DNA of 64,000 nt. Origin: Parvibaculum sp. (GTDB lineage: Bacteria; Pseudomonadota; Alphaproteobacteria; Parvibaculales; Parvibaculaceae). Shown here one piece after another: positions 7,110-8,639 of this stretch. Below the pieces are notes generated by a model. That model was not told where the DNA came from and searched no databases. It worked only from the letters and a program-made list of their open reading frames with translations. Where the stretch lies: positions 1 through 64,000 of the forward strand of contig JAUSLL010000042.1 in NCBI GenBank assembly GCA_030649335.1, given 5' to 3'. Numbering within the stretch: position 1 is the stretch's first letter; every line of letters starts with the position of its first letter. The position numbers and the translations under genes are program-made.

Positions 7110-7149
7110 AAAAAAAATCGCTGCATGGCGGGGGGGCACCATGCAGCGA
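7110..7149 (-). terminator. Intrinsic terminator of the small RNA
   Basis: Perfect 11-bp stem (TCGCTGCATGG 7118-7128 with CCATGCAGCGA 7139-7149) and, read on the minus strand, a run of eight T (7117-7110). The orientation of the T run fixes the RNA on the minus strand. Confidence 0.92.
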
Positions 7150-7276
7150 TCCGTTTACTCTGTTGCCTCACTCAATTCGAGGAGGAAGGGTGGCCCGGCC
7201 CTGAGTTTCCATCCCGGTGGGGCTGGGGGGCTGATAAAACCGGAAGGTCCGTGAGGACCGGGCCAGTGAGGCAACA
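7110..7276 (-). ncRNA. Small structured RNA of unknown family, about 165 nt
   Basis: On the minus strand a perfect 12-bp closing stem (TGTTGCCTCACT, 7276-7265, with AGTGAGGCAACA, 7172-7161) encloses a second stem (GGCCCGG 7264-7258 with CCGGGCC 7198-7192). Inside are at least two hairpins: GGTCC-TCAC-GGACC, and CCGGT paired with ACCGG. The 3' side of the junction leaves 19 nt unpaired that include CCTCCTC, an anti-Shine-Dalgarno-like motif seen in several alphaproteobacterial trans-acting sRNAs. An intrinsic terminator follows 11 nt downstream of the closing stem and a promoter precedes it. I do not recognise the family; 6S RNA was considered, but the large two-sided bubble is not evident. 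Function as a base-pairing regulator is inference. Confidence 0.65.
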
Positions 7277-7281
7277 ATTGA

Positions 7282-7309
7282 AATATGGAGGTCCACTGTG
7301 TTCACCCAA
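7282..7309 (-). promoter_or_regulatory. Putative sigma-70 promoter of the small RNA
   Basis: On the minus strand TTGGGT (7309-7304) and CATATT (7287-7282) are 16 bases apart. The predicted transcription start falls at about 7276, the first base of the closing stem, which is why I favour this pair. Confidence 0.5.
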
Positions 7310-7412
7310 GGGCTGAATAAAGGCAATTTTGTGATTCGTAAAAATTCGCAAAACGATCGAAAAAGTGAGACTATCGGCGGGTTGGAGACCATGCGCGGAG
7401 GCAGATCAGGCG

Positions 7413-7808
7413 ATGCAGGAACGGCCCGAAAGCACAAACTCTGCCCCCGTTGCGCTGGTTAAATCTGCCGGTGGTTCGCCTGCCCTGCGCGCGCCCGTTG
7501 CCGAACCCGACATCTTTTTCACTCGCGCCGAATTCGACGCCATCCTCTCGCTTTATGGCCGCAAGGTCGTTGAAGGTGAGTGGCGTGACTACGCCATCGG
7601 CTCGACGCGCGAAGTGGCAACCTTTGCCATTCACCGACGCGCAAGCGAGCAGCCGCTGTTCCGCATCGAAAAGCGCCCGAAGCTTGCCCGCCGTCAGGGT
7701 GCTTTCAGCGTCGTCGCCGCATCGGGCCTTGTGATGAAGCGCGGCCATGATCTTGCTCAGGTACTCAAGATTTTCGAAAAGCGGGTGCTACGCATCATTG
7801 ATGCTTGA
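7413..7808 (+). CDS. DUF2794 domain protein
   Basis: 131 aa from the ATG at 7413, which has GGAGG at 7398-7402; the frame opens further upstream, at 7365, without such a site. The central part (FFTRAEFDAILSLYGRKVVEGEWRDYAI and the LARRQGAFSVVAASG region) matches DUF2794, a cytoplasmic family largely confined to Alphaproteobacteria with no known function. Probably monocistronic: a promoter region shared with the divergent small RNA lies upstream and a terminator follows. Confidence 0.88.
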   Translation: MQERPESTNSAPVALVKSAGGSPALRAPVAEPDIFFTRAEFDAILSLYGRKVVEGEWRDYAIGSTREVATFAIHRRASEQPLFRIEKRPKLARRQGAFSVVAASGLVMKRGHDLAQVLKIFEKRVLRIIDA

Positions 7809-7880: not shown

Positions 7881-8639
7881 TCAGCGGCGGTTGCCGAAGA
7901 GCTGCAGCAGGAACATGAACATGTTGATGAAGTCGAGATAGAGCGACAGAGCACCCATGATCGCCTTCTTGGAGGCGGTCGCTGCCGCGTCGCCCACATA
8001 GTACATTTCCTTGATGCGCTGCGTGTCATAAGCCGTGAGGCCCGCAAAAATCAGCACGCCAAGCACGGACACGGCCCACTGGATCATCGGGCTGGCGAGC
8101 CAGATGTTGACGACCGAAGCCACGAGAAGGCCAATCACGCCCATGATGAGGAACGAACCGAAGCCTGTGAGATCACGCTTTGTCGTGTAGCCGTAGAGGC
8201 TCAGACCACCAAAGGCGATGGCTGTGACAAAGAAAGTCTGAGTGATCGAAGCGCCGGTGTAGATGAGAAAGATGCTCGACAGCGACAGACCCATGAGGCC
8301 TGCAAACAGCCAGAACGAAATCTGGGCTGTCGACACCGACATCTTCGAAATCCGGGCACTGAGAAAGAACACCATGCCGAGCGGCGCGAGCATCACGACC
8401 CATTTCAGCGGGCTTTGATAGAGCGCGGCACCGGCCGATGTCAGCGCAAGGCTGCCATCCGGCGTTTGGACAACGGCGAACTGGAACGCGAGATAGGCAA
8501 CGACGCCTGTCAGCGCGAGTCCGCCTGCCATGTAATTGTAAACACTGAGCATGTAGCTGCGCAGACCTTCATCAATCGCGGCATTGCCGCGCGAGATGGT
8601 CGCGCCCGACTGCATACGGTCCTGGTCAAAATTGGCCAT
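7881..8639 (-). CDS. Bax inhibitor-1 (BI-1)/YccA family membrane protein
   Basis: 252 aa with seven hydrophobic segments, starting after a soluble N-terminus of about 35 residues. It carries family blocks such as LRSYMLSVYNYMAGGLALTG and, near the end, TAYDTQRIKEMYY, which contains the conserved acidic/tyrosine motif. Bacterial BI-1 homologues (YbhL, YccA, YetJ) are inner-membrane proteins linked to calcium leak or FtsH modulation; which applies here cannot be told. Start chosen at MANFDQDRM, preceded by GGAGGG. Monocistronic, with a terminator shared with DUF2794. Confidence 0.93.
   Translation of the reverse strand: MANFDQDRMQSGATISRGNAAIDEGLRSYMLSVYNYMAGGLALTGVVAYLAFQFAVVQTPDGSLALTSAGAALYQSPLKWVVMLAPLGMVFFLSARISKMSVSTAQISFWLFAGLMGLSLSSIFLIYTGASITQTFFVTAIAFGGLSLYGYTTKRDLTGFGSFLIMGVIGLLVASVVNIWLASPMIQWAVSVLGVLIFAGLTAYDTQRIKEMYYVGDAAATASKKAIMGALSLYLDFINMFMFLLQLFGNRR

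Follow-up and report, generated by a model that had tools for sequence, protein, structure and literature searches.

A minus-strand small RNA of Parvibaculum sp. encoded beside DUF2794 is probably a distant member of an alphaproteobacterial sRNA family with a C-rich loop that includes PmaR, BjrC174 and CC3664

The stretch of Parvibaculum sp. DNA analysed here (64,000 nucleotides, hereafter the window) carries a real minus-strand RNA gene whose stem covaries, which ends in an intrinsic terminator and whose expression is predicted from the sequence (RNA 7276-7110; Table 1). An earlier note on this DNA had proposed a discrete trans-acting RNA belonging to a family that it could not name. The former claim is now well supported by covariation, by the RNA's own terminator, by conservation and by homologues that are proven sRNAs. 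The latter has to be revised, as the RNA is a distant homologue of BjrC174 (RF02355), Atu_C10 = PmaR (RF02497) and CC3664 (RF01530) that scores below their Rfam cut-offs. RNA 7276-7110 is most probably a distant orthologue within one alphaproteobacterial family of trans-acting sRNAs whose C-rich loop, judging from homology with PmaR, would pair with mRNAs. Very likely, it belongs to a single family that Rfam has split into these three entries, and Agrobacterium PmaR, Bradyrhizobium BjrC174, Caulobacter CC3664 and RNA 7276-7110 probably form one old family.

Table 1. Features of the RNA 7276-7110 locus, in positions of the window
Feature	Position	Strand	Remarks
sRNA gene, ~167 nt	7110..7276	(-)	5' end at 7275/7276, inferred
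12-bp closing stem, 5' arm	7265..7276	(-)	From sequence and fold
12-bp closing stem, 3' arm	7161..7172	(-)	Perfect in this genome only; shorter in relatives
Conserved GC stem (11 bp), 5' arm	7254..7264	(-)	Two-sided changes in 9/12 helix pairs
Conserved GC stem, 3' arm	7192..7202	(-)	Same covariation test
Apical hairpin stem, 5' arm, CTTCCGG region	7240..7246	(-)	Two-sided changes in 6/7 helix pairs
Apical hairpin stem, 3' arm, ACCGGGA region	7212..7218	(-)	Same covariation test
Apical loop TCAGCCCCCCAGCCCC	7219..7234	(-)	Invariant in alignments A1/A2; same core in BjrC174, CC3664 and PmaR; proposed mRNA-pairing seed
Pyrimidine-rich 3' arm with CCTCCTC	7173..7191	(-)	At least 7 consecutive pyrimidines in 27/27 relatives
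Intrinsic terminator, C7 loop and T8 tail	7110..7152	(-)	Hairpin 7152-7115, then eight T
Upstream element (-60 to -31), ATCACAAAATTGCCTTTATTCAGCCCTTGG	7306..7335	(-)	Candidate promoter/regulator site, conserved
DUF2794 gene (PF10984), divergent neighbour	7413..7808	(+)	Pfam E = 2.8e-35

The RNA, which is present in one copy in its own Parvibaculum-like genome, has a predicted folding energy of -87.4 kcal/mol as compared to -66.3 kcal/mol for dinucleotide shuffles (z = -5.1), a value reached by 0 of 200 shuffles. The perfect 12-bp closing stem, the second GC stem and the terminator with eight T residues described in the earlier note were all recovered. Of the two inner hairpins that it had listed, one is indeed the main hairpin, whereas the other is only weak and lies within the 3' arm. 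The terminator, with its C7 loop, may offer a second pairing site; this loop is also rich in C among Parvibaculum relatives, as it is in the consensus of CC3664.

Searches with the DUF2794 protein and with DNA showed that almost every Parvibaculum and Parvibaculaceae genome has a homologous RNA at this position. Comparison of the homologous regions beside DUF2794, suggested earlier as a check, uncovered the compensatory changes expected of a structured RNA: among 32 distinct aligned sequences, two-sided changes occur in 15 of the 19 core pairs and 95.8% of cells are paired. This covariation was matched by 0 of 500 shuffles and approached by no slid register, the latter control answering in part for the bias towards the structure that arises from fitting the alignment to the model. 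The closing stem measures 5-9 bp in most relatives and is absent in some, its perfect 12-bp form being peculiar to this genome. The invariant part of the Parvibaculum-type RNAs is the apical loop CAGCCCCCCAGCCCC (7219-7233; alignments A1/A2) and not the exposed CCTCCTC, which had previously been emphasised. The latter is kept in three of 27 related RNAs, although some pyrimidine run of at least seven residues is found in that arm in all 27. For this reason, CCTCCTC was rejected as the functional motif, as was membership in the type of anti-Shine-Dalgarno sRNAs that share a conserved exposed CCUCC(UCC), e.g. alphaR8/SisA. Thus, the earlier idea of a C-rich anti-Shine-Dalgarno sequence holds as far as a C-rich motif is concerned, but this motif is the apical loop.

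Upstream of the RNA, no sigma-70-type promoter passed a consensus scan, and a sigma-32-like reading of CTTG...CCATATTT has a -35 part that varies among relatives. The promoter previously assigned to the first stem base is therefore weaker than had been stated, although the 60 bases upstream are indeed conserved without indels. Across 27 Parvibaculaceae-type sequences, positions -60 to -31 are indel-free and hold 1.6-1.8 bits per position, as compared to 0.2-0.5 farther upstream, where the sequence is nearly random. The element reads TTGCC-N4-TTCAGCCCTTG, and a diverged form of it is common to PmaR (TTGCCCCATTTCGGTCAAA) and CC3664 (GACCTTATTTCGGTCC), where it is located at a similar distance. 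At 14 of 35 other loci its profile was detected near the RNA at p <= 0.05, about two being expected. In Brucella, the DUF2794 gene BAB1_0087 has been reported to be under the control of the silencer MucR (PMC10746212), and hence the intergenic region shared by the RNA and DUF2794 may be a MucR target.

The divergent position upstream of DUF2794 provided an anchor that is independent of the RNA sequence. We fetched 80 DUF2794 loci by the protein alone and searched up to 650 bases for hairpins with a GCCCC(C)nA[GC]CC loop. Such a hairpin, which RNA 7276-7110 itself possesses, is present on the divergent strand at 63 of the 80 loci and on the other strand at none, with 1.3 expected from shuffles. 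An earlier scan with loose loop criteria gave 72/80 loci but also 31/80 in shuffles and was replaced as too permissive. The positives include Rhodobacterales (loop TCAGCCCCCACCC) and Parvularculaceae (loop CGCCCCCAGCCC), and Rfam annotation is absent from the 10 hairpin loci of these types that were scanned. Since the loop pattern had been defined after the first loci were seen, the test was redone on a fresh, evenly drawn set. Here, 11 of 30 loci with strong DUF2794 homologues had the strict pattern where 1.3 were expected; one of the 11 (L199) looks like chance, and about five further loci carry looser forms. By comparison, the hairpin is absent from all 39 loci whose DUF2794 homologues are weaker, indicating that the RNA is widespread in part of the class but not universal. 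DUF2794 itself is present in 115 of 220 genomes of the class. Together with the shared locus, the C-rich loop and the upstream element, the result at 63 of 80 loci makes it very likely that RNA 7276-7110 belongs to the joint family.

In Rfam searches, RNA 7276-7110 matched no family at gathering score. The BjrC174 model gave 20.9 bits against a gathering score of 45, and the nearest relatives reached up to 42 bits. With a covariance model built from 13 Parvibaculum sequences alone (R1), RNA 7276-7110 scores 101 bits. Across 385 whole alphaproteobacterial genomes, R1 produced eight matches at E <= 0.01, all of them adjoining DUF2794. Three fall outside the family, and one of these, in an 8-Mb genome (L125, E = 2e-4), is according to Rfam a full-length BjrC174 (175.5 bits) beside DUF2794. 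A homologue in Microvirga (L027) obtained 54.3 bits with BjrC174 (gathering score 45) and 55.7 bits with R1; as it clears the thresholds of both models, direct intermediates link RNA 7276-7110 to BjrC174. In Sinorhizobium medicae, the R1, BjrC174 and Atu_C10 models all pick the same spot. Applied to the whole class under strict filters, the BjrC174 and CC3664 models yielded almost no matches. Like RNA 7276-7110, BjrC174 is arranged head-to-head with DUF2794 and has a GC stem that carries a C-rich apical loop (CAGCCCCCAGCCCC), whereas the Parvibaculum RNA shows no match to positions 1-87, the 5' portion of the Rfam model. In Bradyrhizobium, BjrC174 is abundant and its transcription start site has been validated (PMC4842269).

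Atu_C10 is the Agrobacterium sRNA PmaR, formerly C10, reported from Agrobacterium and one Rhizobium strain only (PMC6234868). Its model (gathering score 60) has no match in the 64-kb window up to E = 10, and it matches seven of the 151 genomes searched in the family to which Sinorhizobium medicae belongs. All nine Atu_C10 loci examined (these seven and two further ones) adjoin DUF2794, and two score above gathering. The published RNase-sensitive positions of PmaR (G18, G19, G47, G62 and G81) and its mutated seed CCCA at 58-61 (PMC6234868) fit our own count of the Atu_C10 consensus, which identifies the mutated seed as the CCCCCAGCCCC core. According to its sequence and predicted fold, RNA 7276-7110 likewise has a single-stranded loop with the CCCA seed on a long stem, and both RNAs are preceded by a related upstream element. 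They differ in that PmaR has the loop prefix ACCCUUUA instead of TCAGC and an extra 5' stem-loop.

Mutation of the PmaR loop at 58-61 leaves the RNA level unchanged but abolishes regulation of murB, murI, cheD, ampC, minD, pepF, bioA, bioB and atu3504 as well as in vitro binding of murB and ampC (PMC6234868). Most targets are stabilised and the sites are often distant from the ribosome-binding site; classical anti-Shine-Dalgarno blocking is not how this loop works (PMC6234868). PmaR levels peak in stationary phase. By homology, the GC-rich stem of RNA 7276-7110 would hold the C-rich loop (core CCCCAGCCCC) open and present it, in the manner of PmaR, to G-rich stretches of mRNAs, and base-pairing would alter their stability or translation. 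The RNA may thus be a C-loop binder able to stabilise or destabilise its targets and less an anti-Shine-Dalgarno blocker. Transcription, trans action and targets in Parvibaculum sp. are in this sense inferred from the homologues.

The linkage between the RNA and the DUF2794 gene across several orders could alternatively mean that the RNA mainly serves the adjacent protein, as a binding partner or as regulator of its gene, and not many mRNAs. We consider such a role quite unlikely, as PmaR directly targets mRNAs through its loop and many lineages have DUF2794 without the RNA. Moreover, the confident AlphaFold model of this protein of ~130 residues (pLDDT 82) has no fold match in the PDB at E <= 0.001 and matched no known RNA-binding fold, wherefore an assignment of DUF2794 to such a fold was rejected. 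A somewhat better, albeit still speculative, idea is that the sRNA and DUF2794 constitute an ancient functional pair of the Alphaproteobacteria, in which the protein binds or controls the RNA or both are regulated jointly via the shared intergenic element. The linkage as such may reflect a partner protein, joint regulation or merely a stable neighbourhood. A literature search for a link between DUF2794 and an sRNA returned no paper, although papers beyond that search could exist.

CC3664 is present in 76 of 99 Caulobacteraceae genomes. It adjoins DUF2794 at 27 of the 30 loci read, nearly all of which display the loop CAGCCCCCCCAGCCCC. On RNA 7276-7110, the CC3664 model reached 24 bits (E = 0.075) against a gathering score of 60, and the two RNAs differ in their stem sequences and in that some genomes contain a second tandem copy of CC3664. 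They nevertheless agree in the DUF2794 neighbour, the loop (AACAGCCCCCCCAGCCCC, within the pattern CAGCCCCCC(C)AGCCCC), the C-rich terminator loop and the related upstream element. When R1 was run against 120 kb of PmaR and CC3664 loci, its best matches (E <= 0.1) fell on the RNAs called by Rfam, but several PmaR and CC3664 places were matched weakly (E 0.02-3), and the unification is therefore partly based on locus, loop and upstream element and not on alignable stems. Beyond the loop, stems can indeed barely be aligned between the Parvibaculum RNA and those of Agrobacterium and Caulobacter, as would be expected if C-loop RNAs had arisen independently in different orders at the same locus, or had exchanged domains there, and were merely alike in function. 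This scenario appears very unlikely in view of the Microvirga intermediate, of a further locus (L195) that carries an intermediate loop, CCCCCAGCCCCCCAGCCCCC, and of an upstream element that is common to the groups at similar distance.

Downstream on this strand, the first gene encodes an ABC ATPase and lies ~200 bases away, which might suggest that RNA 7276-7110 acts in cis as a leader or attenuator of the ABC-transporter operon extending leftwards from 6908. However, the T8 terminator closes the RNA, the neighbour that stays constant is the DUF2794 gene on the opposite strand, and PmaR and BjrC174 are trans-encoded or orphan-TSS sRNAs, rendering a leader function highly improbable. At the BjrC174 locus of the 8-Mb genome, the downstream gene (464-1252, +) faces the RNA, which consequently cannot be its leader. 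Finally, a single long, irregular closed hairpin is also reminiscent of 6S RNA or a 6S-like polymerase decoy, an identity that the earlier note had named as one that would remove novelty and that can be dismissed, as the Rfam models detect no 6S RNA (RF00013) in the window and the true 6S RNA of this genome is encoded on another contig (C22; 70.9 bits, E = 7e-14). A match to tfoR (E = 0.0024) was discarded as well, since it comprises mostly the generic terminator stem and poly-U and is far under the cut-off (23/70).

RNA 7276-7110 is thus a new, distant member of an already known RNA group, and an unassigned hairpin becomes a member of a family for which experimental data exist. Rfam lists RF02355, RF02497 and RF01530 without a clan, and their unification seems to be new. 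It joins three unlinked families and many unannotated relatives from Parvibaculales, Rhodobacterales, Parvularculales and Hyphomicrobiaceae, and the joint family may rank among the more widely conserved trans-acting sRNAs of Alphaproteobacteria, which corrects the published view of PmaR as Agrobacterium-specific. This would allow results from Agrobacterium, Bradyrhizobium and Caulobacter to be interpreted jointly and would give target prediction many genomes to draw on instead of four. The linkage also supplies a hypothesis for the uncharacterised DUF2794 protein: if true, the sRNA-DUF2794 pair would represent a new class-wide module of post-transcriptional regulation.

Two observations concern the surroundings of DUF2794. 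A ybhL leader (RF00520) scores above cut-off near the DUF2794 gene at two loci (L036, 4715-4783 (-); L191, 2988-3075 (-)); in the window, which encodes Bax1-I (ybhL-type) at 7881-8639, no ybhL leader reached the cut-off. Tandem pairs of C-loop RNAs, spaced ~100-200 nt apart, occur near or upstream of DUF2794 in Caulobacteraceae (G470, G478, G485, G496, G500 and G505), and such pairs are also found near or upstream of DUF2794 at loci L212 and L224.
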